A DNA stretch of 64,000 nucleotides from the NCBI GenBank assembly GCA_949130485.1, contig OX422204.1, positions 3,504,515 to 3,568,514 on the forward strand, given 5' to 3'. The notes beneath the pieces were generated by a model. It did not search any database. It saw nothing but the letters and a program-made list of their open reading frames with translations, and was not told the origin of the DNA. Of the stretch, positions 25,590 to 63,089 are shown piece by piece (position 1 is the first letter of the stretch; every line of letters begins with the position of its first letter). The translations under genes were made by a program, and so were the position numbers. The DNA comes from Agelas oroides. Taxonomy: Eukaryota; Porifera; Demospongiae; Agelasida; Agelasidae.

Positions 25590-26637
25590 CTAATTTGATT
25601 TGTCATAAATTTTCTTAGCAAGACTCTTCAGTTTGTCAACATACTCCAGTTTATGATAGTGACCTTTAGGAACCCCTTTATACCCATGCATGGCTCCCCA
25701 GCAGGCTGCAGCAATAATCCCTGTACTGTCAGAATCACCGCCATGGAGCATGCTGCGATGGCACAACTCAAACCAAGAGTCACCACTGCTCAGGAGAGCA
25801 TCGTATGCAATCATTGGAGCATCATGGCCACTTGCACCACCTGTACCTGAGAAACTAAGGCTCTTGTAGAATTTATCTCGCTCAGAAATACCATATTTCT
25901 CTGGAAATGTGGGTTCTGCTTTCCCATCTAGGATTCCACGCAGTTTGAGGTAATTGGTCCACTTTTCTTTGAAGTAGCTCCAGCTCTCTTTGTTCTCCTT
26001 CACATCCCTTCCAGCATCTTGAACGTAGTCCATTGCGGTGTCCAAAGTTTGGAGTAGCCCTGCCCCCCACTCCTTGAGAGGCTTGTTCTGCACAGCATAG
26101 GAAACAAAGAGAGCAGTAGCAAGGGAGCCAAGAAACCCGGTTGGGTGGTTGTGGGACATGCGGCCAGCCTCTATGGAGACAGCAACCAAGTCATGGATCT
26201 GCTCGGGCTTCGAGTAGAATAGACCAATAGGAGCTGAACGCATAGCAGCACCACACCCTCCTCCCTTGGGATTGAAGGGAATTACATATCCATCGGGAAC
26301 TCCCGGTCTCAAGGTACGGATGGTTGCACTACAAGTCAGTCCCGGGGCTCTCCCTGACATATCTCTCATGCACTCTCTGTATTGCTTTGCAAGGGCATGG
26401 TAGAGCTCCTTGTGCGTGTCCCAGTCAGACAGAAGAGCCTCGGCAGTGGCTATGTGCATGACGGTATCGTCTGAGATCTTCCAGTTCTGAGGGTTCACAC
26501 TGATGCCATCCAGCCCACCTAGCTGTTCCAGCTGCTCGTGGATTCGTTCTCCAGAGCGACAGAACTCCCAGCTTCCGTTCTTGTAGCCAATGGCGTCCCC
26601 CACCCCTGCAAGTACCATGCTGGCTTCAAATCTCGTC
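25139..26637 (-). repeat. Segmental duplication, copy A (ADPRH segment)
   Basis: This segment matches 61451-62918 almost base for base over the coding part and with a few indels over the non-coding part. Both copies start at TGTTCATAAG. Similarity ends at the shared CTCGTC (26637 and 62918). The left breakpoint coincides with the end of the satellite. The right breakpoint coincides with the cut end of a Ty3/gypsy pol frame. No target-site duplication is visible. Confidence 0.93.
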
Positions 26638-26753
26638 ACATATGCACTGGAATGGGTACTCCGGTAAGGTGGGAGGTGTGGGTGGTAGTGCCGCCTGTGA
26701 TGGGGCCATCCTGTTGCAGTGTGAGCAATTGGCTCTGGTGGCTTGAATGTCAT
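25590..26753 (-). pseudogene. ADP-ribosylarginine hydrolase-like (ARH1), start-less duplicate
   Basis: The product matches animal ARH1, which removes ADP-ribose from modified arginines. The family metal-binding residues are visible: SDDT near the N-terminus and GGDSDST near the C-terminus. The N-terminal residues of copy B upstream of the RYEAS segment (RFEAS here) are absent. The frame instead runs for about 40 codons into another frame of the adjoining retroelement, giving an unrelated Pro/His-rich lead. The first native in-frame Met is at about 26618, which would cost some 11 residues relative to copy B. The frame is otherwise uninterrupted, with only a few substitutions (S/N, K/M, F/Y), so the copy is young. 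It also lost the intergenic promoter region found at copy B. It may be a dead copy or a chimeric transcript under a new promoter. Confidence 0.85.
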
Positions 26754-29700
26754 TTGTGATGCCAGGCCAGAAGATTGATGATTCCGCCTTTGATGTCATG
26801 GCCAATGTGCCCTGGTGGGCAGCATGCAGGGCAGACAGGCATGAAGGTCGTAAGGAGGGTGGAATGACAATTCGATCCTTGTAAATTACAACGCCATCAC
26901 TGCTGTATAGATGTCTCCTGAATTGGTGGTATTCTCTGATGGGTGGCGGTAGTTGGTGTTTCAATTCTGGGATGCCATCTTCTATGGTGGAGAGGAGGAG
27001 GAGCATGTCGTCGTCGGATGATGTGGCAGTTTGGACTTGTTCCCAATTGACGGTATGTGTGGAGTGTAAGGAGGATAGTAGTGACTCCTGTAGTTGGTTT
27101 TCCGTTTGGATAGAGTGTAGCTGGTCGTCTGTGCATATGCCAGCTATGAGTTGGGTGGGGATGTGGGGAGGAGGGGTGGCAGTGCTATTTTGGATGCTGT
27201 GTATGTCATCATGGAGGACCATTTTGGGTGGGTGGTGATCGCCTGTGGGTTGTCTTGAGAGGGTATCAGATGCCCTGTTTTTGACGCCCGGTATGTGGAC
27301 CATTTTGAAGTGGTATCTTAGGGTTTTCTCTTTTAGGTTCCTCAGTCTGGTGTTGCAGATGTGATCTAGGGATCTGTCGCCGAATATCTTTAGGAGTGGT
27401 TTGTGGTCTACTGCAATGGTCAGGTTTTTGCATCCCAGGACAAAGTGTCTTGCTTTGTCCAGAGCATCTGCCACTGCCAGTGCTTCACCTTCGATTGGTG
27501 CGTATCTGGATTCAGCATCGTGTGTGAATCTGCTGCCCACTAGGGTGATCTTCCAACCTTGTTTGCAGCAAAAGAGGTCGTTGGAGGGGCAGGAGCAGTG
27601 TTTCTGGAACAACCAGTAACCAATGCCATGTTTCGACCAATCAGTGGCCAGGCATGTGGGTTTTGTTTTGTCGAAGATTTTTACTCCATTGTGGATTTCA
27701 TCGATGATGGTTAGCTTCGACTGTTCGAATGCTTGTTGTAGTGTGTCGTCCCAGTGGAATTTGTTGCTAGGCTTGAGTAGTTCCCGGAAGGGTAGCATCG
27801 TGTCAGCCATGCTAAATGCATATGACACCTGGTTCACCAAACCGAACCAAGATCTTACATCCGTTAGGCTCTGTGGGGTGGGGAAGTCGGAGATGGCCGT
27901 GATGTATTTCTTGCATGGTCGCACGGTGTCATTGGTGATTTCGAAGCCTGCGAATTCAACTTCATCTTTAGCAAATCTGAACTTCTCGGGATTGAGGGTG
28001 ATTCCATGTCTGCCACAGATATCCAGCCAGTTGGATGCCTGGAAGAAGCTTTCTTCTATTGTGTCAGACCATAGGAGGGTGTCGTCTACGCATCTGGTTT
28101 TATTTGGGATGGATGAGGTGATCTCATCGTATCTCCTGGTGTATCCGTCTCCTGAGGCAATGTAGCCTTGTGGGGCTGTGCGGTATCTGTAGCGGCCCCA
28201 AGGGGTGATAAAAGTGGTATAGTGTCGGTCTTCAGGATGAAGGGGTACGCTGTGGTAACCGTTCCATGCATCAAAGACAGTTTTCTTTTTCCCTTGAGGG
28301 ACCGATCTTGCCTGGTGGAAAGGCGACTGGGTGTGATGTGTTTCTCTGGTGGCATGGATGTTGAGAGGTTGGAAGTCGATTGTCCTTCTAGGCGTGCCAT
28401 TCTTTTTGGCGCAGATGACCATTCGATGGCACCATGTGACTGGCTCTCCAATTGGTACGGGTTCAAGTACTCCCAGTCTCACGTCTCTGTCTAGGCTGGC
28501 TTTGACATCGTCTTGCCAGTGGAGGGGTACTGGTATGGGTGAGTGATGAGCAGTGGGGGTTGCGTGTGGGTCGATCATTAGTCTCATTGGTGGGCTTTCC
28601 ATGAGTGGTAAGGTCTGATGTTCACAGGTGTTGAAGGTGCTGGAACTGTAGTAGTCTAGGAGGTATTGCTGGAGTTTCTCCCTGTTGGCTTCTGTGGCTG
28701 GGTATGGTAGGGAGGTGGGGACTGGTGGTGGCTTTGTCCGTTTGGGGCATTGACATTCCTGTTGTGGTGAGGAGGTGTCGGTGGCACCAATGGCGTTGGT
28801 GGGGTTGGTTCCTTCGGCTTTGTCCATTGAAGGGAATGTGTTTGGGATGATCCCTAGGTCTATGCATGCTTCCCTGCTGAGGAATAGCTTGTCAGTGTTG
28901 TTAGTCACATAGATCATTTGCCTGGTGGACTGTTCTTCTCCATTTTTGTTTTTCCCTGATAGCCTCAGTATGGTGGGACCCAGGATGCGTATGTCGTGGT
29001 TATCTGCTGCATGCATTTTGATGTTGACGGGGATGAGGTCTCTGGTGGAGAGGCCGAGTTTCTTCACAATTTTGAGACCTGCTACGCAACTCTGGCAGCC
29101 AGTGTCGGCCATGGCACTAACGAAGGACCGTTCTTGTGGTATTCTGAGGGGGAACCCAAAGTGGTCGTAGTCCTCCTGTCGGATGCTCATCTGTAGCCTG
29201 ATGTATGGTTGAGGTTTGGACTGCCTCCTCAGCCATTCCTTTGTGAACTTGTCAAAGACATGGTGGTCTAGGGTGGTACTTTTGGTGTTGTCCGCCGACA
29301 TAATCTTGCATAATGTGTCGAATATTGCGTCTTTGTGTCCGGTGTCTTTCGCCGGCCTTGTACTGTTTTTGCTCCTGCACACCTCAAAGTGGTGGTCTTT
29401 GCCACAGCAGCTGCATTTGGTGCCAAAGGCTGGACATTCAATTCTCCTGACTCTTGATGGGGGGTTTCTTCCGTGCCCTCTGGTCCCACAGTACGTGCAG
29501 GTGTCCTGATCCTTTGGTGGTGGGTCTTTGGCTGACGGTCTCTTCTGCCTTCTGTATGAGCTGCCGGTCACTGCATCCGTTGCCTGTGGTAGTAAGAGAC
29601 GGGACGCTGACCTCTTTCCTGCCTCCTTCGCCTTGACAAACCTGAGGATCTGTTCCAACGTCATGTCTTGATTCCTGTCCCCCAACAAGTCCATCTGTAT

Positions 29701-29835
29701 TTCAGTGTCTTCCAAACCCCTGCAAAGTACGTCTTTGATCATAGCTTCTGTGTAGTCCATGTTGGTCTCGCACCCTGTACATTTTTGTGTGAACTTGCAG
29801 ACGCCTGTCCTCTCAACCTGGCCCCGTAGGCACAT
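26626..29835 (-). pseudogene. Gag-Pol polyprotein of Ty3/gypsy type, broken
   Basis: This is a 1069-codon frame. From the N-terminus it has the C-terminal part of gag; a Cys/His knuckle region near residue 113 (CTYCGTRGHG, then CSCCGKDHH); a protease with ADTGCQS near 243; a reverse transcriptase with the active-site variant CVDD; an RNase H starting at about LATDWSKHG; and an integrase zinc finger with HAAHQG..CSHCN. It ends a few residues after PEYPFQ, so the D,D35E core is missing. The gag start lies in a different frame (29739-30037), and the frames switch near 29810, consistent with a single-base indel. The element cannot supply its own integrase. Confidence 0.92.
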
Positions 29836-30037
29836 ATTGGTTCGTCTCGATCTTGCCTCATGTTATGCAGGGTCACCCTTGCTACCATAGTATTCTCTTC
29901 CCTTATGGCCAACCTTCTCATGGCTGTGAATACTTCATCCTCGGTCATTTCAGTGAGGGTGCCCCCAGCGTTTCTGGTGAGGTCTTTGCGGAGCTGGTCG
30001 TCGCAGCATTCTAATAGTTGGATGATCCTGTCGGTCC
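26638..30037 (-). mobile_element. Ty3/gypsy LTR retrotransposon, truncated at both ends
   Basis: On the minus strand the order is gag (from about 30037), nucleocapsid zinc knuckles, aspartic protease, reverse transcriptase, RNase H and integrase zinc-binding region. It stops at the position where the integrase catalytic core should begin. No LTR is visible on either side. At the 5' side it ends at a CAGTGGCGGATT motif typical of another transposon family. At the 3' side it ends at the ADPRH duplication junction (26637/26638). Confidence 0.92.
29739..30037 (-). pseudogene. 5' part of gag, out of frame with the rest
   Basis: The frame reads DRIIQLLECC at its start and EDEVFTAMRRLAI further in, then crosses into nonsense after GARLRGQ. 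The continuation of the same domain is found in the neighbouring frame. It lacks an upstream start because the element is truncated near 30037. Confidence 0.75.
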
Positions 30038-32019: not shown

Positions 32020-32121
32020 GTAAAAACGAACGCCAAAAAGGGGGCCTATGTTACCGGGAGATAGGGCCGGGGGGGTCCCAATCTCATGGGGGCCCAAAAA
32101 AAATTTATGACACCGGTGTCA
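32020..32121. mobile_element. Ginger-like terminus remnant
   Basis: Subterminal GGGGGTCCC / GGGGGCCC repeats lead to TGACA at 32108-32112. This is followed by CCGG and then TGTCA at 32117-32121, mirroring the TGTCA..TGACA ends and CCGG target duplication of the element at 32450-34892. It looks like the end of one element touching the start of another. I could not place a complete partner. Confidence 0.35.
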
Positions 32122-32207
32122 TGGGGACGTCCCGAGTAAAATAATCTAAGGGAGTATATAGGTACCGCGCCGACCTCATGCAAATTCCAAGCTGTGGCAT
32201 GTCAGGG

Positions 32208-32241
32208 CATAGATAGTGGAGAGCACTATCCACTATCTATG
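32208..32241. repeat. Short perfect hairpin
   Basis: The 13-bp arms CATAGATAGTGGA and TCCACTATCTATG are separated by 8 bp. The outer sequence resembles the arms of the 32-bp palindrome at 41898-41929. Confidence 0.7.
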
Positions 32242-32456
32242 GTCAAGGTAGGATGGCTAGGATGTATAAAGCGATGTATAAGGCAATTGAAATCGGTAGG
32301 GAGTCAGTTTCATTGTGCATGGAATCTTCGAGCTAGCCATGCACTGGAGATCGACACGAGACCATGCGGGAGGAAAGACAAAAATGCTCCTGGGACAGCT
32401 AGCGTATTCTTTGCGTTTAGTCTTCGATGAAACCCTGCCCACAGACCGGTGTCATA

Positions 32457-32715
32457 TCACTGTAAAAAAAAGTGGGTAGTTTTAACCCATTGCAGTTACC
32501 TCAGTTTCATGCCATTTTCCACATGATTGGACAATTTCATTAGCAAAGTATTCTCCCATGACATTTACTAATGTTCTGGAAAGCCTAATCAAGTTCTTAA
32601 TCTGTTTGGAATCTAAAGCAGGCAGTGGGACATCACTGTGTTTAACAATGCAGACAAGTAAGAGGAAACTGAGATAACCAAATTGAGTCAAAACAACCTT
32701 TCCTTTTTTACAGTG
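32457..32715. mobile_element. Small TA-flanked MITE inside Ginger A
   Basis: It starts TCACTGTAAAAAA and ends TTTTTTACAGTG, with TA on each side, as expected for Tc1/mariner-like insertion. Removing it restores the adjacency of the Ginger terminus to its GGGGAT repeats. The interior is open on the minus strand for about 75 codons (with PLPALDSKQIKNL). I do not recognise it. Confidence 0.55.
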
Positions 32716-32979
32716 TAGGGGATCCGGCACCCCCGAGAATTTGGCACCCCCGAGCCAAATCCCCTAGGGGTTTTGGAACCCCCTCGGTGCTTTTGGTATC
32801 CCCCACTGAACAGGGAATTTGGCATCCCAATGCGAAATTCCCTAGAGAATTTGGCATCCCCATGCACAATTCCCTAGAGAATTTGGCATCCCCATGCAAA
32901 AATTCCATACTATTAATATATCAGCTTTCAAATCAATCACTTCTGTTATGGCACCTTGTGTAACAATACAATACTACAA

Positions 32980-34632
32980 TCACTTGAAACATTTATTACA
33001 GTTCCACTGTTCGCTTTCTGCTGGAAATTGCTGTAGACCGACACACTTGAGGTGGTACCAGTCCCCACACGTGTCACACTCGACCATATCATCATATGTT
33101 TCTGGCATCTGACAAGTGCAGTACAGTTCAATCTCCATATGGGGGAAATAGGTCTGGTAACGAGGGCCAGCCTTAGTCTGTGGAAAAGGCATCATTGTTT
33201 TCCTTTGAAAACATTTCAACAGGTGCTGTCTCATCTTGGACTGGTCAAAGTTCAGTCCTGCTGCATCATCACCAAGGGCTAAGTGGACTGCAAAAGCAAT
33301 CGCGAAAAGTCCACAGTCTGAAACACCATTCTGCTGCTGTGCATATGGTACATCTATAAACAAGGTTGGGTCCATTTCCTCACCATCTTCGTCCTCAGTT
33401 TTCACCAGCAGCCTATAGCTCAAAGCTAACTGGTGAGTAAGTGATGAACTTAGTCGGCCACCTAAAAGCTTGCTGTCGTAAACAGCAACACTTTGGCCAA
33501 TACTACTTGAAGTCACCCAATGGCCTGGGTCACGAATATGGTGTATCTGGATTCCCTCATGTTGCAGTGCCTCAAAGCCATCTGTCTCGGATAATAAAGT
33601 TGACTGTAGGCCATCAAGATGAGGAAACTGCTTCTTGAGCAACTGCTGGGCCAAGTGAATATGCTCATCAGTCAGTTGCCCCCCCTTCACCAGAATCTCC
33701 TTCATCTGTGCTGTAAACCTTGGAATCTTCACCTTGTCATCCTACATGGAATAGGTTTAATAAAATGATTGACATTACACACATGCATAAATATTTCTGC
33801 TCGGTCTCTGCCTGAAAGTTGATGTTCAAATGAAGATAACTCTACTAGTATGCATGCTTGTGTGCCAGTATACAGCTGATAGTGTGAGTTGACCAACCTT
33901 GGATGAGTCTGGCTTTTCGTTTGGCTCCAACCACAACTTGAGTCTGTGGCAGTTGTATGCTCTTGTCAGCACTTTCCCGTTCCCATCCGTCAATTTATAC
34001 CTGCCTTTCCCGAGATCTTCTGCAATCGTGTATGGTCCTCTGAACTGCAAGTCCAATTTCCCACCTTTCCGGCTCTCATTCTTCATTTCCTGAACCAGCA
34101 CCTTGTCATCAACCTGCAATAAATAAACAAACAGTATATATAGCATGAAATAACAACTATTGTGTATGCTTCTTACCTTCAGCTCAGTTCTCCCATTGTG
34201 TTTTGCATCATACTGTTGCTTCTGCTTTTCTTGTGCCTTTACCAAAATGACAGCCCCCAACCCGATCATCATGGCAGGCTTCCAGTATTCTCAGTTTGAC
34301 TGTTTTGTCTCTGATAACCTGCAAGGTAGCATAGAAGTTCACAGCAGATGAATATCACATATTGTGCACACACTGTACACTATACATAGGCATTACGTTA
34401 CCTGTCTAAGTCTCAGCTGTCCAGTTTTCAGAGTCTCCTTGTAGTGAAGGACACCATCCACGAGTTGGAACTTTTTTGCCCTTTTCCTAATAACAGCTTT
34501 CCCTGCTTTTGTCGCTCCTTCGGGGTAGGTACCGTTGGCTAGGTAGTCCTGCACTTCGTCGTAGTTCGTTAGCTCTTCCCGCTCCGCCTCACCGTCCGAC
34601 CGAACTTCAATCTTCGCTGCATAGTCCGCCAT
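32980..34632 (-). pseudogene. Ginger transposase gene A lacking the integrase core
   Basis: Exons on the minus strand are 34632-34402 (N-terminal YDEVQDYLANG segment); about 34324-34178 (start of the zinc-binding region, ILEACHDD..GGCHFG, fused out of frame to the far side of the core); 34113-33898 (GPY-type RGPYTIAEDLG segment); and 33741-32980. The last exon carries a Ulp1/C48-like protease with His in GHWVTSS, Asp in VYDSKL and Cys in GVSDCGLF, followed by a PHD finger (YCTCQMPE..CDTCGDWYHLKC). The deletion removed all three DDE residues and shifted the frame, so this copy cannot transpose itself. The 33741-32980 exon is still fully open. Confidence 0.82.
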
Positions 34633-35134
34633 GATTCTGATTCTCGGTAAATGTGACATGTAGAGCACCACACGCTCTTCAAGTAGTCACGCAAGTTCAC
34701 CATGACTGACACCTTTTGATAAGCTCAGCAATCCGATTCGTTGAGCTGTACCGTCGCGGGATGCCAAATTCCCCAAGGGGTGCACCGCAGGGTGCCAGAA
34801 TCCCTCAGCGTATTTTACTCGGGGGTTCCAAAATCCCTAGGGGATTTGGCTCGGGGGTGCCAAAAACCGGGGAAGCCAAATTCCCTATGACACCGGTCGA
34901 ACTTTGCGGGCTGATGGGTACTAATATTCATAGGGTACTTACGTTCGTGTGGGGGAAATTGATAGGAAAAGGTTTTACCGGGGAATAGGTAATTATATCT
35001 ATAGGGTACTTGTAATTGATGGGTACTTATACTCCCGATTTTACGGTATGCTGTTTCATTATTCAGTCTACTGTACTGTTCGACCAGGTTGATATATCGA
35101 TAGACTCCAGTGACAGTCGGCAGCGATAATCGCT

Positions 35135-41100: not shown

Positions 41101-44100
41101 CTATGGGCTAGCTGTGGACCATACCGCAATGTGTACATAGTGATGCATTAATTAAGTGGGCATGGATGTCAAGTAAGTGTTTACAGCCGCACCTACACCA
41201 CGCGTACTATTGACTATGGCTACTGCGGCCGGTGGTCTCAAGAAGAACACAGAACCTTGCCATTTATGCAGGCGTGCTATACACGACAGCAGGAACCGGA
41301 GAACGCTGGGCTCCAGAACGTCTGAGTGCGCTACTACTGCTACAGACGGTGTGTGTTCTGAGCTCGGACGATGCAGAAACGACTTCGAGCTGCGGTCAGT
41401 GTGCAAGCCATGTTTCCAGGACCTTGAGGGTTTGGGCAAGGCAGAGGCGAAGGTTGCGCTACTAAGGGCACGTTTTCTTGGTTTTCTGCGGCCGAGAGCA
41501 TCAATCGGCTTATCTCCAAGTCCTGCTAAGCGGACGGCTAGCGGCTCCCCCATCGCGGTTACACCGACCCGTCCTGGCCGCAAGCCAGCAAAGCGCATAG
41601 CCAGCGATTCTCCCATCGCAACAGGCGGTACCCCGAGTGCTCGGTCTCCAGCGCGCAAGAAGCCCTTGCTGATCCAACAGAAAGATTTTCCACTGCCAGT
41701 TGGCAACGACACGAATACATCCTGTCCTCTCAAAAATTCTCTCGCTGCTTCCAGCTGCTCGTCTCGAACATCCGGATAACCGAGTCGTCCAAAAGCCTCT
41801 CTCACTGCAGACTCAATCTCCGACACACTCCACTCTCTGCTCGCCATTTTTTTTCGCCCGTTGACACAACACGTTGCGATAATTAAGAGGGTGTTATCAT
41901 AGATAATAGAGTCGACTCTATTATCTATGGTGTTATATAAACGGTAGGTGTCTGACCAATCAAATCGCTCCGCCGAAATTCCGCGGAGGTACAAAAATCT
42001 TGTACTATATTCACCAGACCCCCCTTTCCTCTTGGAGTGTTGAAGGGGGGTCTGGGGACGAGACTAAGTACTCACAGGAACATAAGTACACCCCATGAAT
42101 ATTAGTACCCCATCAGCCCACCAAGTTTGACTGGTCTGTGGGCTGAGTTTCATCATCGAAGACTAAATGTAGAAAATATGCTAGTTGTGCCTGAACAGCC
42201 TGAACAAACTTGCTTGCCAAAATATGTTTATTTTGGACATGCCACAACCACTAATCACTTAGACATGTAGCTCGGGTGGTGCAAAAAGTTTACGGTAAGA
42301 CAGACCCATTTTCACATATTTTGTGCAGTTTTTTTCGAGCTATCCGCCGATATGTAAATCGTGCAGATCGGTCCAGGCGTAACAAAATGTGACAAAATTT
42401 TGTGCGGGGACGTCGATCGAGCCGCGCGCGACACTGTTGACAAAAGCCGCTCGCATGCCGCCTAGTCTCGCGGAGCCAGACTCTCCCGCTTTTCGTGTGA
42501 GAGTCTGGCTCCGCGAGACTACATGCCGCCTAACCTTGCCTGATGCCGACCAAAAGTGGATTTTCGTAAAGTTAAAGTTAAGGTACCATTGTATAAAAAC
42601 GAGCGGAAGTCCGGTGTCACATGCACAGGAAATCCGATCCGGGCCTATACCGATCCGGGCGGATCGGATCCGCTAGCGGATCCGATTTTTTTTTTTAAAG
42701 TGATGATAATACGTATATAGAGCAAACTACAAAGGAGAAATAAAAAATATATAGAATACAACTGTGTGAAAAATGACGACTTAGTTCATAGCTTTTCAAG
42801 GGGCACTTGACCTTCGCTGACTACTAGGTCAACCGGCCCATTGTGTGCGGCGTGTCCGGAAGACGAACGGTGTCAAGTGAATATGGGCACCCCCAAAAAT
42901 GGGCATCCCGGATGCCCATTTTCACGTAAAATTAGGCACCCCGATGCCTATATTCACGTAACTATAGGCATCCGGATGCCTATTTTCACAGTGAATATGG
43001 GCATCCCACTGTGAAAATAGGCATCCCGTGCAAACAGTGAAATTTTGCCCGTGTTAACTATGTTTATAGACATCCCTATGTGAAAATGGGTCTCCCACGA
43101 AATTTGCCCACGAGTAGCTGGTTACATAGCTAGGTATACCTATGTAACAATAGGCACACGGTAAAACTTTTTCACGTAAATGTAGACATCTGGGTGCCTA
43201 TACTTACGTGAAAATAGGCTTTCTAGCTAGCTAATGTTATTGACCACACAACCACACTGCATTTTGACTTCAAAACATCCTAGCATAAATTTTATATAAC
43301 AATTATAAAAAATATATAACTAAAAGTTAGTTACAGGTTGAACAATACCAAATGTCAGGTACAGTAGAGTCAGAACGTAGATTCATGCACTTAAAATGGT
43401 ACCACAAACTACATTTGTCACACTGTATCATATTTGAGTCGTAAGACTCGGGCAGCTGGCAGACACAATACACATGTACAAACAGGTGCTTTGCAGGGTT
43501 CCTGTTCACAGCACCAAGGGCTATGGGGAAAGTCGAAAGCTGCCTACGTTCAAAACACTCAAGTAAGTGCCTCTGCATGCCATTCTGCTCAAATGTGACT
43601 CCCCCAAAGTCATCGCCCATCGCACAGTGGTATGCAGCTGCAACACTGAAGACACCACAATCAGTGCTGCCTTCCTGCTGTTGAATGGAGTTGGCTGTAA
43701 CCATGAGAGTGCCCCCTCTCACTGCAGGACGATAAAGTCGAACCAGTTGCTCCTCTGTGCTTGGACACAGGTATCCCGGAAAGCAGCTGTCATAAATATG
43801 GACTTCGCCATCGTGATAAGCTGTTGCCACCCAGTGCTGTCTTTCTGGAACAAATAATATCTGTACAGCTGCATGTACAAGAAGGATAGAAACAATGCTT
43901 ATCAACATTGGACACAAAGTTATCCAGCAGGCATGTTTGGTAACAAAATTGGTACATCTAACTGTATCAACACATACCTTCAGGATAAAATCCACCGCAT
44001 TCAGACACTGGTTCAAAAGAGCTAGTCTGTGAAAGCAGAGTGGACTGCAGACTCTGAAGTTGTGGGAACTGCTCACCCAACATCTTTTGTGCAGCATTCA

Positions 44101-47100
44101 TGTGGACATCAGTTAGCTTTCCCCCTTTTTCAATGATCACCTTATCCTTCCTTGTTAGCATAAGGTCTCTAATCCAATACTCAGATGCCTGTAAAAGAAC
44201 AATATCAATTCAGTGCTTTAGTGTTAGAATCTATTAGAGAAGAAGGTATAGTTAAAATGTAACAATGAGGTACAGAAGTTTAAATTTCTCTCTTTAGGCT
44301 TTCCTACATATTTTCCTTGGCTTTGACTCTCCATCACTACGTTTAAAGCTATCCCCTATATGATGTACCTTGCTCTTCTTTGCTGCAGGACCACTAGTCT
44401 GAATGTCGTCTTCACTAGCCCTCTTCACATAGATCTTGAGCCGAGCTATATTTGCTTTTTTCTTCACCACCTTCCCATCTCTGCTTAGCTCATAAAGCCC
44501 TTTTCCAATGCACCGGTGGATAACATATGGCCCAAGCCATGCAGGTTCTAGTTTGCCACCCTTCCTCTGCTTTTGAGCTGTGTTCTCCAGTAAGACCTCT
44601 GTTCCTGCTGCTATTTCTTCTGGCTGATGCTTTCTGTCGTAGGTTTCTTTTTGTTTCTTCTGAGCTGACAAGATGTTGCTATCTGCCTTTTTGAACACTT
44701 TCTCCCTTGACTTGATCAGTGCTTGGACAGCAGTGTCGACATCTGGTGCATTCTCATCAGGTGTATTGGATGGAGATAGGACCTCTGCATCAATCGGGAG
44801 CCTCATATGCTGCTGAAACAGCATGTAGTATGGAGAATGCTTGGTTGATGCCTGGCGGGAGGCTCGATAGCCCATCAGCACCGTGTCTAGCTTCTCATCC
44901 CAGTTTGTTTGGTCTTCATTACACACTTTTGCCAAGCACTGTGACAGCGTCTGATTAAAGCGCTCTGTAAGTCCGTTTGTCTGCAAAAAAAAATATGGTT
45001 AAATAGGTCTCTTTGGCACTACACTGTATTGTTAATACCGGGGTATATACCTGTGGATGATATGCGCTTGTGATCCTGTGGTCAGTGTTGGTGATGGTAT
45101 ACAACTCTGCAGAAAGCTCGTTTACAAACTCTCTTCCTTGATCTGTTATCAGAGTCTCAGGGCTTCCGAATCTGCAGATCACCTGCAGAAAGCACAAAAT
45201 GTTATTCTTATAGTTGTCAGTTTACTTCTTCAGACATGTGAATACTTACAGAATAGATGAATCTGGCAACACCTTCAGCATGCTTTGATGGGAGTGGTGC
45301 TGCTTCTGCCCACTTGGAAAAGTAGTCAGTCAGTGTGACTACATACTTGTTGCCTCGTGGTGTCTCAGGCAGTGGGCCTATCATATCCATTCCAAGCTGA
45401 CAGAAAAGACTGGGTTTTACAGGGATTGGATGCAGCCCCCCCACAGCTTTCTTGAGCTTCTTGTTGCCACACTGGCAACGATCACAGGATTCCACCTACA
45501 AGGGATCATTCAGTAAATTATATAGCACCTGAAATAGTGCAAACACAGAAAGCAGACTAGCCTTGCACCCAGGCCGTTCATAAACTTACATAAGTGCGAA
45601 CATCCACAAACAGTCCAGGCCAATAATACTTGCTGGCCACCATGTCATTAGTTCTGTTAAGACCTAGGTGGCTTGCATTGTGGATACTTGCAATGATCCT
45701 CTTCCTTTGCTCTGTATCCTCCACTACTAATCTTGGAGTGGATGAAGCTGCTTTGCCTGTAGAACAACATATTGAACTTTGGTAGTCACTTCATGTATAA
45801 GGCGCTTTTGTAGCTATAGCAAATGTATCCGTATGTGCATGCATACTTTTACAGGGGTTGAATTATTACAGCTCACCTCCACCAATATAGTACAGATCCT
45901 CATTTTGCAGCATGAAATACTTGGATCTCCTTCGCAGCGAGTTTTTCTCCAGCTTCGATGCTCCTTCAGGGTACTGCTGATAGCGCAGGTAGTTGTAAAT
46001 GGCTGTGAATGCGAATCTCCCATCGGCGCTTTGCTCATCAGAGTGAAGGTCTTCACTGATCTCTTGGTCTCCCATTTCTCTTCTATCTCTCCGGGTATAA
46101 GCTGTATACTTCCTGAATTTGCCACTTTATACTTGGCCATTCTGCGCCTGACATGTTTTGACAACTGACCGTACCGCCAGTGCTGTATACGTGTCATCAT
46201 GACCTTCCCGCCGTTTGCGTGCTGAAGGGGGTTCCTATAATCACGGCGGGATGCCTAAAATCATGTGAAAATGGGAACCCCGGGATGCCCATATTTACGG
46301 GGTGTGTATATTTTCATGACAACGGGCCCCTCGCAGAGAGGTGATGGCTGACCTCAAGAGTGAAAAACTCAGATGGCAACGTAGCCAGGCTATCACAAGG
46401 CTGTACGGTTGGTCTCGCTTCCTTGCCAGCAGGGATGCAAGCCGTTTGTAGGCCACGGAGGCGCATTTCGCCATTCCACCAGAAGTCGAGAACACAAGGG
46501 GAGTGAATGTACCCAGTTCAACCTCGCGAATCCGCTGTTCGTACGTTCTCTGTTTCTCTCTCTCCTGTTTTCGGTAGACTGAGGCTAGCTGGAGCTTCCG
46601 GTGAGTCTGAGCGTTGGGGTTAAAGACCCTTACATCGAAAAATGCTCGCTGATACCGGTTGTCCCAGAAGCCTTGAGCGCTGATATCAAGGCGGGCACCG
46701 TCTTCCGTGTTGGCTGTGGCATATCTGAGTGTTTCACCTGTGAGGGGCTGCAGTGTTGGCTCTAAACACACGTCATGGCACACTTCGGTCATGACTTTTG
46801 CTGTGAAATCCCTCAGCTCATTATGTCTGATGGTTGGGAAGCCTCCAGTGGAGCAACTGAGAGCATGATCAACCGAGAAGGAATGACCACAGACACAATC
46901 GTTGGGTAGGTTGGCCGGCTGCCAGTTATACCGAAGGCACAGGGCATCTCTGAATGCTCCTTTATGCAGTGCAAATCCATGCTCCTCAATGGGTAAGACG
47001 GACAACCAGGAAGAGGCACCTTTCTCACTACCCAGTTCCATTGCGCGCTGGAGGTGCGTTGGTAGTGTAGTCCGTAGCTGTGTGGCTGTTACAGCCTGTT

Positions 47101-50100
47101 TTTGTTGTCTGAGTCGCTTGATTTCAGCCTTTGCACATTGTTGTTCTCGGATGGTGTCGAAGGTGATCTCATGTTGTTGCAGGAGAATGAGAGTGGCAAG
47201 AGGAGCAGTGACTTTCTGAGAAGAGGAAAATTCGTGGGCAGCTGTATTCGTTGGCTTCGTAAGGCCTAGGCCACCGAGTCGGGTAGGAAGAGCAAAGAGG
47301 TCTCTCTCAGCGGTGGTAACACAGCCTTTTCCAGTCAGAGCAGGGATGAAGTGGAGGTTGATTGCTTCTTCGAGGGGCTGCAGTAAGTCTGAGATTTCAG
47401 GGATGGTACGGAGGAAGTATGTCCACTTGCTTGCTAAGCCATGTGTGAAAGCGGAGTAGGCAGCATGTGGTTGGGTCGTGGCAATGGATGCAAGCTTCTG
47501 GATGGAAGATGTCCATTCCTTCACCTTGTCCTGTATGTAGCTTACAACAAAGGACCTCGAGCCAAGAGCAGCCCCAAGGTGTCTCTTTCCTTCGGTGGTG
47601 ATGTTCACTCCGGTATTCAGAAATCTCTCTGTTGCTGTTGACAGGTGTTTCTCTTTCACGATCAGCCATGTTTTGCTGGGATTGGCAAAGTATCCAAATG
47701 CGGGGCCAAGGTTGTTCAGCTTCACCCACCACTCATGAAGCTGTTCAAGGCGGCCACTAGCCGTGGCGTCGTCAGCAAACCACACTTGCTTTGCATCAGT
47801 GGACTGTAGTTGGTTAATGAGGGGTAGGATGCCTATGGCATACATGGCCATGGCCAGGGGATCTCCTTGTGTCGTCCCCTCACGTGAGAGAAGGGTTTCA
47901 CCATCAATGAACAGCTGTATATCCTCTCTGTATGTGTTCGTTATGACAGTAGCAAGTGAAGGACAGAGATGGTGGATATTCTGTAGGGCAGCTTGACGAT
48001 TCAGGCTGTTGAATGCGTTGGTAGCGTCAACAAGTAATACGGCTTCGGATTGCTCATCTTGGAAGACACTACGCATTGCATGGATGGCAGCTTCACTACC
48101 AGCCTCCTGACCCGCACAAAGTTGGAGAGAGCCTGCAGCTTCTAGGATGTCGTACTTAATAGCTGCAAGAATGGCTTTGCCAATAATTCTGCGGGAGGTT
48201 TCTCCAATCCCAATTGGTCGTACACCTGGGCATTTGTCAAGGGCTATCAAACGGCTAGCAGTAAGTGGAGCTATACCTCGAGGATCAACATAGTTAGTGC
48301 ATAACTTCCTTGCAACTGAAGCTAAACTGTTGCACAGGTCTGCCGATGCATTTTGAAAAGAAGTGCATAGGCGTCTCCACCCAGTTGAATCAATCCCCGA
48401 AGGACCAGCGGAGCCATTGGTGTGGAGGGCAGCAGTACGGATGCTTGCACCATCTAGACAGTCAAAAACAACTGGGTGAGGTACTGGTCTGGGGGTTGTT
48501 GAGGAGATAAGGGCGTCAGGGTGTGCTGGCTGTCCTGGTGGATGTTTTTTTAGCAACTCGTCACGGACAGTAGTAATCGGTTGATCTGGATGTGTACTCA
48601 GCCTTGTGTCAATGGGGAGTGGTCCTCCTTTTGATTCGTTTGTGAGGATTCGAAGGGCAGCCCTGACCTTTCCCTGCAGCATCAGTTTGGTGAAAAGGCG
48701 TGTAGTTTGTTCCTCCTTACTACTGCGTGCGTGCCTGTGATTCTGTTTGAGGCGGTGTTGTATGGTGCGTCCCTCAATAACGAGATTGTTGATGTCACCC
48801 ATTTGCCAAGAATCGAGTCGTCGTTGTAGGCACACCACTAGCGGATCCGATCCACCCCCGGATCAATTTTACTAGCGGATTCGATCCTTCGCCGCGAAAA
48901 CGATCCGTCTTTGGTGCAAGTGTTCTGTCAAGAAAAATCACTAACTGTCAGGATGATGTACGATTTCTCAACACTTCTAGAACATTTTACATTATTCAGA
49001 ACTTTGTGACTCATGGAAATCGACTACCAGACGATCTACGACTATATCTCCTCTGCGGAAAGTGTCCAGCAGGAGCGGATGTGTAATCCAGAAGCGAGCA
49101 ACGCGGAACAAAGCGAAGAAGTTTGTCATCAACGATGGCGTTTTACACTACATAGGCAAGGAATGGATGCATATACATAATTGCTTTCAGAAGAAGGAAA
49201 TGCAGCCAATCCCACTGACCCGGACAGCCCCGCATGCATCACCAGAGTTACTTTCCTTTAGGGATCGACAAATGTTGGGACTTTTGAAGTGTGTAGGACT
49301 TGAAAGACCACCACCCAAGCAAGAGCAATGGAATTGTATGCAATTGCTCTATACAGTCATAATAACTGTTATAAAATTGTAAGTGTGTATTTGTTTCAGA
49401 CCATGCAAACTGTAGTTTTGACATGGATATTCGTTATACCCTAGTCAAGGGTTTGTCAAGTCAGACTCTGAGTCAATCTATATATCAATCAATCAATCAA
49501 TCAATCAAATTTTATTTATGTCTCACTTGTGCATATACACAACCAGCCTAGTAAGGCTTACGAGACACAACGCTTATACATAAAGATGGTAGGTATAGTG
49601 CTACTGGTAGAAGGTATACAATATAAAAGGGGGGGAGTGTGGTAAGGTGCAGTAAGGATTACAAGGAAATAAAAGAGATTAAAATATGGTGGAGGTTGAA
49701 TGGTCATACAGGGAAAGTAAATAGGGGGGAGGGGGAGGAGGGATGGTTAGGACAACTATAATTTGGATGTTTGAGTCAACTTTTGCATTGTTGTAAGTTG
49801 TTACTTTTACCCCATACACGAGACAAACTACACTGACATGCCTTCCCCTGGAGCCAGGCTGCCTCTCTAAGTACACCAGCTAGGAGACAGACAACATGTA
49901 GACAAACAAGCCTTCCCCTGGCACTCCAGTACCAGGGGACAGACTACACAGAGGACGGACAAGCCTTCCCCTGGGACTCTTTTCAGAGTACACCAGAAGA
50001 CAGACTAACACAGGGACATAGAAGCCTTCTCCTGGCACCCATTTCAGTTTGCCAGGAGACAGATTACATGAAGACAAACGAGTCTTCCCCTGGAGCCCCT

Positions 50101-53100
50101 CTCGGTGGACCAGGGGACAGACTACACAAAGACAGACAAATCTTCCCCCGGAGCCCCTCTCAGAGCACCGGGGAACAGACTACATATAGAAAGACTAGCC
50201 TTCCTCTGGGACCCTTCTCAGGGTGTACCAGAGGACAGACCACATATATAAGCACAAACAAGTCTTCCCCTGGAACCCTTCTCAGAGTACACCAGGGGAC
50301 AGACTACAAAAAGACATAAAAGCCTTCCCCTGATGCCCTTGAGACATAAGCACCAGGAGACAGACTACATAAGGACAAACAAGTCTTCCCCTGGCATACC
50401 TTTCAGAACAACAGGAGACAGACTACATAAGGACAAACAAGTCTTCCCCTGGCATACCTTTCAGAACACCAGGAGACAGACTACATAAACACAGCAGGAC
50501 AAGCCTTCCCCTGGGACCCTTTTCAGAGTGCATCAGGGGACAGACTACATATAAAACAGACAAGTTTTCCCCTGGAACCCTTCTCAGAGTAAGCCAGGGG
50601 ACAGACTACACAAAGACAAAAGCCTTCCCCTGGGACCCCTCTCGAAGTATATCATGGTATATGGTAACAATCGTAAAACCATTTCTCGTAGGGCAGTCAG
50701 AGGGGTCAGGGGGGGTTGGAATTCTTGTGCACAGATCCATACTACAGCATTCTACAATTCAGGTACTTGACAATTCATTTGAAGATATCCTATATGGGTT
50801 CAAATAATGGACAATAATGGGAGCTGTGTGACTTGTGTATGTGTTTGCTACCTATCTCCCGCAAACTCCTCCCGGGGTGACAGATCTACTGAGTTTTTTG
50901 ACTGCCTTAAAGCACAGATAATGGAATTTCATAGTTATGGCAACTTCTTTATATGTGGAGACTTCAATGCTAGAATTGGTTCCCTACCTGACATTATAGT
51001 GAGCTACAAGTAGGCCCAAGAGAACATATAGACAAATCTGTCAACTCACATGGTAAAGCTCTACAAGTGATATGTGCGTGCTAAATGGTAGATCAGGGCA
51101 TGAAGGAAACCAATATACTTCAATTTCCATAAGAGGAATGGCTGTAGTGGATTACTGCTTGGTTCCTCACGAAGATCTTAAAAACTACCAAGATTTTACA
51201 ATTACTAGCATGCCAGAAGTGGTGGAAAAACAACGTCTCCAGGTTGACACTACCTTGTCTGACCACTCAGTTCTGTCCTGGTGCCTGAAAATAGCATTCT
51301 CAATTTCCAAACCAGTCATCAAAGACTCTACCCAAAAGGTAGTTAAAAAGATACCTGAACACTACATGGAATCAACTCAGTGTCTAGAAGCCTTCCAATC
51401 CTTAACATCAATGTTGGATTGCGCGTCTGATTCACGAGACGACCTTGGACTAATCTACAGTAAATTCTGTCAAACTGTGGAAGGGGAGCTCATTGTCAGA
51501 CACCAAAACCCTAAGAACCCCCTCATGAAACCTTGGTGGTCTTTAGAGCTTTCAAAATTACGGAAGGATCTTAGAAAAGCTTTAAAATATTGGCAAGGCA
51601 ATAAGAGTAACCCTGAACTCAAGAACAGACACCCAGGTGATTTTTAAGAACTTCCTAGAGCCAGTGAAGGTAGAATCTTGTAGGGGTTGTGTGATGCTAC
51701 ATCCATTCAAACCAATTCCTTCAGATGAGAGCCTGTTTTGTACTTGGTCAATGCTGAGGTGTTTGGGTACATTACGCAAGTAAACTATGACTTGTGGGGG
51801 AGTTGCAGAGGTAATTGGGCTAGGGGATTGGAGGTTTTGAGATGGAGGAGAATGAATGCGCCTAGGTGATGGTACAGGATTGGGGAGGCAAGTGGGGCGT
51901 GGATTGGATTCCACTGGTGGACAGCAAGTGGTCTGCACATTGTGTTCACTGTTGGTGTAATGGAGGGTAGAGGGGCCATTAGAATCTTTGCACTGAACAA
52001 GGGGGGTAGGGAGTTGGGATGGGGGTAGAGAATAAGGATCTGCTAAGGTAACAAATGGGTTGGGGTGTACTGGTATGGGAGAGTGGCTTGGTGGGAGGGA
52101 GTGGGTCATGTTGTCAATGACTCCATTACCCATCAGAAAATCTAGATCCCTTGCCAAACCTTGGACCTGTTCCTGTAGGCATTTAACTTGGTTTGGTAGA
52201 TCTTGCAGATCCTCCAGGCGTAATCTCAAAGCTTGATTATCACTCGCAAGTGCACCAATCTCTGCTTTGAGACATTTCATTTGCTCTGAGCAACCATCAC
52301 ACACCCACCAGCATCCCTTGAGCTTCTTCAGCATGGAATAAGTACTAGCTGTTATACCTAAGCAGGCTGAATGAATCCACCCATCACAGAGGTCACAACA
52401 CAAGGCTTTACTGTCTTCAACAACCATACTGCTACAGACTTGACATGGGGCATCCTCCTCACCATTGATCACAGACATTTTGTTATGGTTATCTGAGACT
52501 CAGCCACTACAGTGAGGATTTTGAGATCACTTTCAAATGGCTATAGCTACCTTGTTTCTACAGTTTTCACACCTTAAGAAACAGTACAGTAGGTAATAGT
52601 ATAGCACAAGGCACAGTAATAAGAACCAGTACAGTAGGTAATAGTATAGAACAAGGCACAGTAATAACACCTTTATTCTGTTGAGAGACTGTATTTAACA
52701 GGATTCAGCACTAAACAAATCTCAGGAAGGGATAGTAACGTCCACTTAAAAATTCACACCTATAGGAGGGACTAGTAAGTGGGGAGGCGCTTCTTGGATT
52801 TTGACAAGATTTGCTACTTAGCAAGACTACCGGCTATAAAAACTGTATACACAAGACTGACCTCAGATCTCTATTCATGTGGCTGCCCTGGATAGGAGGG
52901 ACAGTTACGGCAAAGTGAGTTACTGTTTTCGGGAGATATATTCGACGGTGTGATGCTTTACTTTACGGTCCGATTTAGCGCTATTTGTTCAACAAGAGCG
53001 CATAAGAACGGGCGGCTAGAGTAAGAGCGTATAACTCCGTAAATTTGAAACCGGTCGGAATTACTGAACTGTACTAAAAATAGTAACCAGTGGCGGGTCT

Positions 53101-61450: not shown

Positions 61451-62918
61451 TGTTCATAAGCTTGTGAGTTTATGGTTATGTGTTGTTCCAAGGTTCCTCC
61501 CCAGCTTTTGTTGCTTACTGGACAAAACCTGTGGAGGAGCTGTTTTTAGCCTTTGTCCCAGCTATAGCTCTTATGCGGGGTCGATCTGAGAGTTTGGTAT
61601 ATAGCAAGGCTACTAGTATGTTTAAAGCACAGCAAGCTGCAGAGCTGAATCAGTACATGCAAGGATTGCTGCTTGGATCATGTTTTTTGTAGACCACACA
61701 CTGTCTTCACCCTAAATAGACTAAATATTTGCACAAACAACCACATCTCATTAACAGATAAAATAAGTAACTGTTATTCGAAGCTTACAACAATCATGAA
61801 GCAGCTATGTACTCCTGATTCAACTAAGTAGTCTACTAAAATTCAAACTCTGTCTTGTATACAGCTACCTCTAATTTGATTTGTCATAAATTTTCTTAGC
61901 AAGACTCTTCAGTTTATCAACATACTCCAGTTTATGATAGTGACCTTTGGGAACCCCTTTATACCCATGCATGGCTCCCCAGCAGGCTGCAGCAATAATT
62001 CCTGTACTGTCAGAATCACCACCATGGAGCATGCTGCGATGGCACAACTCAAACCAAGAGTCACCACTGCTCAGGAGAGCATCGTATGCAATCATTGGAG
62101 CATCATGGCCACTTGCACCACCTGTACCTGAGAAACTAAGGCTCTTGTAGAATTTATCTCGCTCAGAAATACCATATTTCTCTGGAAATGTGGGTTCTGC
62201 TTTCCCATCTAGGATTCCACGCAGTTTGAGGTAATTGGTCCACTTTTCTTTGAAGTAGCTCCAGCTCTCTTTGTTCTCCTTCACATCCCTTCCAGCATCT
62301 TGAACGTAGTCCATTGCGGTGTCCAAAGTTTGGAGTAGCCCTGCCCCCCACTCCTTGAGAGGCTTGTTCTGCACAGCATAGGAAACAAAGAGAGCAGTAG
62401 CAAGGGAGCCAAGAAACCCGGTTGGGTGGTTGTGGGACATGCGGCCAGCCTCTATGGAGACAGCAACCAAGTCATGGATCTGCTCGGGCTTCGAGTAGAA
62501 TAGACCAATAGGAGCTGAACGCATAGCAGCACCACACCCTCCTCCCTTGGGATTGAAGGGAATTACATATCCATCGGGAACTCCCGGTCTCAAGGTACGG
62601 ATGGTTGCACTACAAGTCAGTCCCGGGGCTCTCCCTGACATATCTCTCATACACTCTCTGTATTGCTTTGCAAGGGCATGGTAGAGCTCCTTGTGCGTGT
62701 CCCAGTCAGACAGAAGAGCCTCGGCAGTGGCTATGTGCATGACGGTATCGTCTGAGATCATCCAGTTCTGAGGGTTCACACTGATGCCATCCAGCCCACC
62801 TAGCTGTTCTAGCTGCTCGTGGATTCGTTCTCCAGAGCGACAGAACTCCCAGTTTCCGTTCTTGTAGCCAATGGCGTCCCCCACCCCTGCAAGTACCATG
62901 CTGGCTTCATATCTCGTC
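61451..62918 (-). repeat. Segmental duplication, copy B (parental)
   Basis: Counterpart of 25139-26637. It includes the last 349 codons of the ADPRH gene and about 420 bp of its 3' flank, but ends inside the fifth codon (an Arg in copy A), so only copy B keeps the start and upstream region. Confidence 0.93.
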
Positions 62919-62932
62919 GAGAGGTCGGCCAT
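61871..62932 (-). CDS. ADPRH: ADP-ribosylarginine hydrolase (ARH1-like), 353 aa, single exon
   Basis: The enzyme cleaves ADP-ribose from arginine side chains and so reverses mono-ADP-ribosylation, in the cytosol in other animals. The frame runs the full family length (human ARH1 is about 357 residues). It includes VLAGVGDAIGYKNG, the first metal-binding pair D61-D62 in ISDDTVMH, GRAPG, GGGCGAAMR, the SIEAGRMSHNHPTG loop, YLKLRGILDG, SGHDAPMIAYDAL, and the second pair D306/D308 in HGGDSDST. I chose the Met of MADLSTRYEAS; an upstream Met would add 20 residues without family similarity. The gene has no intron and faces the SLC35F-like gene across 157 bp. Confidence 0.93.
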   Translation of the reverse strand: MADLSTRYEASMVLAGVGDAIGYKNGNWEFCRSGERIHEQLEQLGGLDGISVNPQNWMISDDTVMHIATAEALLSDWDTHKELYHALAKQYRECMRDMSGRAPGLTCSATIRTLRPGVPDGYVIPFNPKGGGCGAAMRSAPIGLFYSKPEQIHDLVAVSIEAGRMSHNHPTGFLGSLATALFVSYAVQNKPLKEWGAGLLQTLDTAMDYVQDAGRDVKENKESWSYFKEKWTNYLKLRGILDGKAEPTFPEKYGISERDKFYKSLSFSGTGGASGHDAPMIAYDALLSSGDSWFELCHRSMLHGGDSDSTGIIAAACWGAMHGYKGVPKGHYHKLEYVDKLKSLAKKIYDKSN

Positions 62933-63089
62933 CAGTGCTAGATCGAGTCGACCCCACCCCCTTGCTGTGCCCGTACGAATAATTAGAAACAAAATATTTG
63001 AAAGGCAGTTACTCGTACTGAAGCTTGAGTCTAGAGAACAAAGAAGTGAGCTGTAAGTCGATGTTTGTTGCTCTCTTCAACCCTGAATC
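62933..63089. promoter_or_regulatory. Probable bidirectional promoter
   Basis: Only 157 bp separate the divergent starts of the ADPRH-like and SLC35F5-like genes. No TATA box is obvious in either direction. A shared promoter is inferred from spacing alone. Confidence 0.5.

Follow-up and report, generated by a model that had tools for sequence, protein, structure and literature searches.

A young and apparently complete Ginger1 transposon in the sponge Agelas oroides and the likely exchange of Ulp1-PHD tails between Ginger1 lineages

What kind of mobile element joins an integrase-like transposase to a putative SUMO protease and a chromatin reader, and does such a tail stay with the transposase that carries it? 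The question is raised by a locus of the sponge Agelas oroides at positions 42871-46321 of the 64,000-nucleotide stretch analysed here (assembly GCA_949130485.1, contig OX422204.1, positions 3,504,515 to 3,568,514; hereafter the window), which an initial annotation had read as an apparently intact Ginger transposon whose transposase is fused to a Ulp1-like protease and PHD finger. Our analysis argues with high confidence for a Ginger1 cut-and-paste DNA transposon that is young and complete in sequence. Fusion of a Ginger1 integrase with Ulp1 and PHD is already known and the window element joins this known kind; what we add is the likely exchange, suggested by sequence comparison, of the tail cassette between Ginger1 lineages.

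Ginger1 was described in 2010 by Bao, Kapitonov and Jurka (PMC2836005) and is defined by TGTNR ends, terminal inverted repeats of ~40-270 bp and target duplications of CCGG (75%) or CCGT/ACGG (24%), has 0-4 introns across families and encodes a protein with H2C2, DDE, GPY/F and YPYY parts, followed in all families but one by a Ulp1 or OTU tail, to which a single Hydra family adds a PHD finger. Both the limits given for the window element and its 4-bp ACGG duplication proved exact to the base (Table 1). The element starts with TGTCAAGTG (TGTCAAG...) and ends with CATGACA, its termini are of the TGT...ACA type with the TGTNR motif present as TGTCA at both ends, and its terminal inverted repeats, at 73-75 bp, lie within the published range. 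Units of GGCAYCC/GGRTGCC are concentrated towards the ends, with nine in the first 450 bp, two in the last 301 bp and none in the 2,700-bp middle, while the two ends, shuffled as one 500 times, held 0.28 units on average and never more than 3. Of 13 loci, the window element among them, in which both ends could be read, nine are flanked by CCGG, two by ACGG and two by CCGG with one mismatch, a choice of target that agrees with published Ginger1 (PMC2836005); the remaining eight loci read could be scored at one end in seven cases (five CCGG, one CCTG, one CCAG) and at neither end in one (L018). Together with the H2C2, rve and GPY parts of the protein, these ends, repeats and targets bear out the Ginger identity originally proposed and narrow it to Ginger1. 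Ginger2/Tdd, which targets RTATAY and has neither GPY nor YPYY, is ruled out by the CCGG/ACGG targets and the GPY motif, and a Gypsy-type long terminal repeat (LTR) retrotransposon by terminal repeats that are inverted rather than direct and by a 702-residue protein in which no reverse transcriptase or RNase H was found.

As had been predicted, seven exons on the minus strand join in phase: with six GT-AG introns (phases 1,0,0,0,0,1) they give 702 open codons plus a stop, an exon model that draws on splice signals, on the frame being open and on paralogs whose exons lie at like positions. The predicted HHCC finger (H92/H96/C126/C129) and D,D35E triad (D159/D218/E254) were both located, the latter with exactly 35 residues separating D218 and E254. 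Pfam places three domains of the 702-residue protein above their cut-offs, namely Integrase_H2C2 (1.2e-15), rve (1.7e-10) and PHD (2e-8), and among solved structures the integrase part comes closest to foamy virus integrase (3e-22), followed by Ty3 (5e-21). The GPY/F motif was found by eye as WLGPY at residues 396-400, no Pfam model for the GPY region scoring above cut-off in this protein, and Y35-P36, F54 and Y62-Y63 are, again by eye, candidate residues of a YPYY-like motif.

Is this integrase gene still part of a transposon, and how recently did it arrive? The element interrupts a long interspersed nuclear element (LINE), and when its flanks are joined with one ACGG the resulting 149 bases are identical (149/149) to six other LINE copies, with 13 loci in total matching at 97% or better along 148 or more bases. 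These six identical copies are paralogous, not allelic, empty sites of the Ginger1 insertion. The right part of the host LINE (2,513 bp) differs from its six siblings at 4, 5, 7, 16, 20 and 27 positions, and the changes private to the window copy number 2 in 2,513 bp. Because the empty sites match at 149/149 and the host LINE has two private changes, we judge the host LINE young and the Ginger1 insertion younger still, and recent. That copies recur in the genome and an empty site was found also places the element beyond chance. A host gene domesticated from Ginger1 could likewise present itself as a multi-exon integrase gene, as do GIN1, GIN2 and Imagin (PMC2836005, PMC12863088), but such an origin has practically no probability here, given the terminal repeats, the ACGG duplication, the kept DDE triad and, above all, the 13 near-identical empty LINE sites, which already refute it.

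The window family has further copies: a DNA search of the same genome, in which 40 of 161 candidates were scored so that counts are lower bounds, returned at least 158 matching pieces including the element itself, and 20 further loci were read, making 21 with the window. Near-identical copies and empty sites, both proposed as a check by the initial annotation, were thus found, and where a genome with only old, diverged copies would have spoken against it, the longest other copy (L009) differs from the window copy at 33 of 3,410 aligned bases (0.97%) and the insertion is very young. Divergence is 30/2,475 (1.2%) for L012 and 37/1,996 (1.85%) for L017; values for L010, L011 and L013 were set aside because misaligned deletions and inserts inflate them. 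Against our reading, the window copy has the only open full-length frame among the 21 loci. L009 and L010 cover the greater part of the element, both carrying frame breaks and L009 a stop as well, three loci (L011, L012, L013) are interrupted by large deletions and further breaks, and the 15 remaining ones lack large gene parts (the frame of L017 being judged from alignment coverage), so that the relatives are mostly deletion derivatives. Of the claim that the copy is intact and active, then, the open full-length frame stood, whereas activity gained no support from the 20 other loci. All this would suit a copy that looks intact and is nevertheless dead – silenced, or with a defect in the promoter or in residues not open to judgement – and was last moved by a transposase made elsewhere. 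We regard this as a tangible, if minority, possibility, against which speak the very young host LINE and the preservation of every catalytic and zinc residue, of the splice sites and of the two ends.

The window family is not the only Ginger1 in this genome. A protein search with 63 of 1,842 candidates scored gave at least 104 matching pieces, among them Ginger1-like loci with Ulp1 and PHD as well as LTR-type loci with long frames. In a tree of 14 integrases, which omits L070 (LTR-type), L053, L058, L059, L060 and L065, eight Ginger1-like sequences stand apart from six LTR-type ones with support of 100/99, albeit with long branches flagged by the program. The eight include L062, labelled as Ulp1/PHD-bearing though frame reading of the remaining 1.5 kb revealed no tail and its matching frame stops shortly past the GPY region. 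Across stretches of 2.6-3.2 kb, L058, L059 and L060 match L057 at 99.5-99.9% identity and, judged by this near-identity, the four loci represent a second recently mobile Ginger1 family with Ulp1 and PHD. A lineage other than that of the main element is represented in the window itself by a second, partly deleted Ginger1 at ~32117-34892. It has CCGG outside both of its proposed ends (the pairing of which is our inference), with a similar end (ATGACA) abutting the left CCGG; its Ulp1-PHD frame (32983-33741) is open, no catalytic core was found within these limits, and what seems to be a small inverted-repeat element sits within it at ~32450-32725. By eye, a further Ginger1 remnant may be recognised at 48981-49379 on the plus strand, where an N-terminal stretch, KKFVINDGVLHYIG, is joined to a PHD end, CVGLERPPPKQEQWNC; tblastn gave no match for it at E up to 0.01.

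As for the tail, the initial annotation was confirmed outright for the PHD finger, by Pfam, while the Ulp1-like protease is borne out by a family profile and the window protein alone stays below the Peptidase_C48 cut-off. In that protein, protease residues H534, D549, Q587 and C593 follow one another in the expected order, and the PHD ligands run from C657 to C701. A profile of eight related C-termini (the window element, the second element of the window and six other loci, with L061 outside the set) hits the solved structure 6dg4, a 'Ulp1-like SUMO protease', at 1.7e-6 and 6ups, a protein with a ULP-protease domain, at 9.8e-5; six of the eight match Peptidase_C48 at E up to 1, the best at 2.9e-6. 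It is because of this family profile, and not of the window protein by itself, that we call the region Ulp1-like. All eight C-termini keep the protease H, D, Q and C and the six PHD ligands that every row covers, together with M669 and W678. The best PHD relative among solved structures is PHF2, with PHF8 and BPTF also scoring high. These three proteins are readers of methylated lysine 4 on histone H3 (H3K4), and in PHF2 and PHF8 the cage for the methylated lysine is built from aromatic and Met residues. Position 656 is Tyr or Phe in seven of eight C-termini, and a second cage Tyr lies, by eye, two residues off that of PHF2; reading of H3K4 methylation by the Ginger PHD is accordingly worded here as a prediction.

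Several points weigh against such a reading of the tail. Peptidase_C48 scores E 0.19 (11.9 bits, cut-off 20.7) on the 702-residue window protein and E 0.062, again below cut-off, on its C-terminal part alone; the second element of the window, taken alone, yields no hit to C48 with E of 0.01 or less; L061 has lost its protease His through a deletion; and an AlphaFold2 model of window exon 7 aligned with the open reading frame of the second element reached a predicted local distance difference test score of 36, too low for active-site geometry to be read from it. Nor does the setting of the insertions, taken as a test of chromatin targeting, help much: observed/expected CpG in 1-kb flanks averages 0.80 at 12 insertion sites versus 0.62 (standard deviation 0.26) at control sites, a difference that is suggestive at best against a poor control of 143 overlapping CCGG/CCGT/ACGG sites all taken from this one window, and from which we draw no conclusion. 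Deletion derivatives and the broken tail of L061 could moreover mean that Ulp1 and PHD travel along as passengers and contribute nothing to transposition. We consider this improbable since the catalytic and zinc residues are invariant in all eight lineages or loci aligned and nonsynonymous change lies well below synonymous change. Compared with L055, L056, L061 and L065, the window copy shows a proportion of nonsynonymous differences (protease 0.18-0.42, PHD part 0.21-0.40) well below a synonymous proportion (0.70-0.91) that is saturated or nearly so, and both parts therefore look kept by selection; L009 and the integrase values of L055, inflated by frame breaks and intron letters, were left out.

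Do integrase and tail share one history? Trees of nine rows each, with eight loci in common and without L053, L058, L059 and L060 (near-copies of L052 and L057), give conflicting answers. The integrase part (exons 3 to 5a) groups the window with L056, L061, L062 and L065 at 100/99, while the tail (exons 6-7) places the window with L055 (92/93) and then L056 (99/97), and puts L061 and L065 with L052 (98/95) and the second element of the window (91/94). In approximately unbiased (AU) tests the integrase tree rejected both tail groupings imposed on it, window with L055 (p 0.001) and L061 with L065 and L052 (p 7e-5), and the tail tree rejected window with L056, L061 and L065 (p 6e-9); these p-values are optimistic, as the groups were picked after identities had been seen and the L065 row has residues in only 34% of the integrase columns. 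In blocks of 40 residues the window is nearer L056 than L055 in 7/7 before residue 443 and nearer L055 in 7/7 after it, and L061 is nearer the window than L052 in 8/8 before that residue (block 243-282 containing four filler residues) and nearer L052 in 4/7 after it. Intron patterns, inferred from gaps between exon matches and from open frames, are mixed as well: introns 3, 4 and 6 are present in the window and L056 and all absent from L052 and L066, L061 has 3 and 4 without 6, L057 has 6 without 3 and 4, and L055 seemingly has 3 and 6 without 4. The conflict between the trees and the mixed intron patterns suggest that the C-terminal cassette was probably exchanged between Ginger1 lineages near intron 5. 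Uneven rates, decay of some loci, or hidden paralogy combined with introns lost independently might instead have produced the conflict: both parts are present in eight loci only, among which the integrase part of L055 holds stops, the tail of L061 a deletion and the integrase of L065 the gaps just mentioned, three of seven tail blocks of L061 are still nearer the window than L052, and independent intron losses could mimic part of the intron pattern. This explanation is unlikely, albeit one to be taken seriously, in view of the AU rejections of the concordant groupings and of the switch of the window from L056 to L055 at residue 443.

How transposition may proceed can be sketched as follows. 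The transposase, by means of its HHCC finger, DDE core and GPY part, would pair both ends and insert them at CCGG or ACGG through joins staggered by 4 bp, and the subsequent repair would leave the 4-bp duplication; end pairing, staggered joining and repair are established for the Ginger family. The transposase may bind the repeat arrays at the element ends, the Ulp1-like part may strip a SUMO or ubiquitin-like tag, likeliest from the transposase itself or from chromatin or repair proteins at the reaction site, and the PHD finger may anchor the complex on histone H3 tails, likeliest K4-methylated ones. The protease might also, as the initial annotation proposed, act on the control that the host exerts over transposons by SUMO. 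Transposition, SUMO cleavage and histone reading by this element are in other words predicted activities. A more far-reaching and, to our minds, still rather doubtful proposal sees Ginger1 as a modular platform on which integrase bodies and Ulp1-PHD tails reassort near intron 5, the tail being a docking-and-editing cassette that decides where and whether insertion occurs, with the PHD reading H3K4-methylated chromatin and the protease removing SUMO-like tags.

A role of the protease in transposition was already suggested by Bao et al. in 2010 (PMC2836005), and the young complete copy with its exact empty sites, together with the four near-identical copies of the second lineage, offers natural material for testing whether a protease of the SUMO/ubiquitin type – here plus a histone reader – takes part in the reaction. 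If tail exchange holds on a larger sample, the tail would be a separable functional cassette, and this, if true, bears on the passage of integrase-plus-protease pairs to Polintons and virophages. Ginger-like elements are cited in PMC6431247 as a possible source of the Polinton integrase and protease, and a free cassette would fit this proposal. Twelve stretches of viral contigs fit a pattern, and tblastn found no relative among them.

Among known systems, the nearest by published description is Ginger1-9_HM of Hydra, which is ~3.7 kb long and likewise carries a Ginger1 integrase with a Ulp1 and PHD tail, but has 2 introns and terminal inverted repeats of 120 bp where the sponge element has 6 introns and repeats of ~74 bp (PMC2836005). 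Other Ginger1 families share the integrase part, the ends and the target preference and differ in a tail that is either OTU or Ulp1 and, in the parts of the description used, never both (PMC2836005). GIN1 and GIN2 (PMC2836005) and Imagin (PMC12863088) are multi-exon integrase genes from Ginger1 too, yet as described there they are host genes without terminal repeats and, for Imagin, without the DDE triad. Mutator elements that bear Ulp1 (cited in PMC2836005) also combine a transposon with a Ulp1-like protease, although their transposase is unrelated. Neither Ulp1 nor PHD is mentioned in the main text, so far as covered here, of the papers on Imagin (PMC12863088) and on IS481EU (PMC10045372), and no title or abstract opening that addressed swapping of tails or targeting to histones in Ginger1 was found in a search whose scope excluded most subscription journals and bioRxiv. 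Histone reading, which for the Ginger PHD is predicted, has a counterpart in another recombination system. The PHD finger of RAG2 reads H3K4me3 and works with a transposon-derived recombinase; unlike the Ginger PHD it resides in a separate protein, and the DDE enzyme it serves is unrelated.

Table 1. Positions in the window of the Ginger1 element, its predicted exons and the interrupted host LINE
Feature	Position	Strand
Whole Ginger1 element	42871..46321, 3,451 bp	gene on minus strand
Target site duplication ACGG, left	42867..42870	
Target site duplication ACGG, right	46322..46325	
Terminal inverted repeat, 73 bp, 77% identity to opposite end	42871..42943	+
Terminal inverted repeat, 75 bp	46247..46321	-
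Subterminal array of GGCAYCC/GGRTGCC units	42871..43320	
Exon 1, YPYY-like region	45877..46075	-
Exon 2, H92 and H96 of HHCC finger	45590..45756	-
Exon 3, C126, C129, D159 (45387-45385)	45250..45495	-
Exon 4, D218 (45143-45141)	45051..45182	-
Exon 5, E254 (44965-44963), GPY at residues 398-400	44369..44980	-
Exon 6, N-terminal portion of Ulp1-like region	43978..44188	-
Exon 7, H534 (43836-43834), D549 (43791-43789), C593 (43659-43657), PHD 657-701 (43467-43333), stop	43327..43868	-
Host LINE interrupted by the element, right-hand part	46326..48838	-

With 150 of 459 candidates scored, the genome holds at least 158 matches to the Ulp1-like tail, including sets of equal score such as five at 58.7 bits, four of these in frames of 540 residues; on account of such equal-score sets, other Ulp1-bearing repeat families are likely in this genome. 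Elsewhere in the window, a frame at 51585-52499 on the minus strand encodes a PHD finger (Pfam 1e-6) and is perhaps the first frame of a LINE, which would make it a further mobile element with PHD. Positions 1-25110 are occupied by a large tandem array of CTCTACTTGA-type units with periods of 31, 41 and 72 and a GC skew of ~-0.4 to -0.5, units at ~23.7-24.7 kb lying on the opposite strand. Two ADP-ribosylglycohydrolase frames, 25593-26795 and 61874-63076 (-) (Pfam 5.7e-65 and 4e-65), lie 36 kb apart and are by eye near-identical except for their N-termini, and the former overlaps a retrotransposon frame of LTR type (26629-29862) at the end of the latter.

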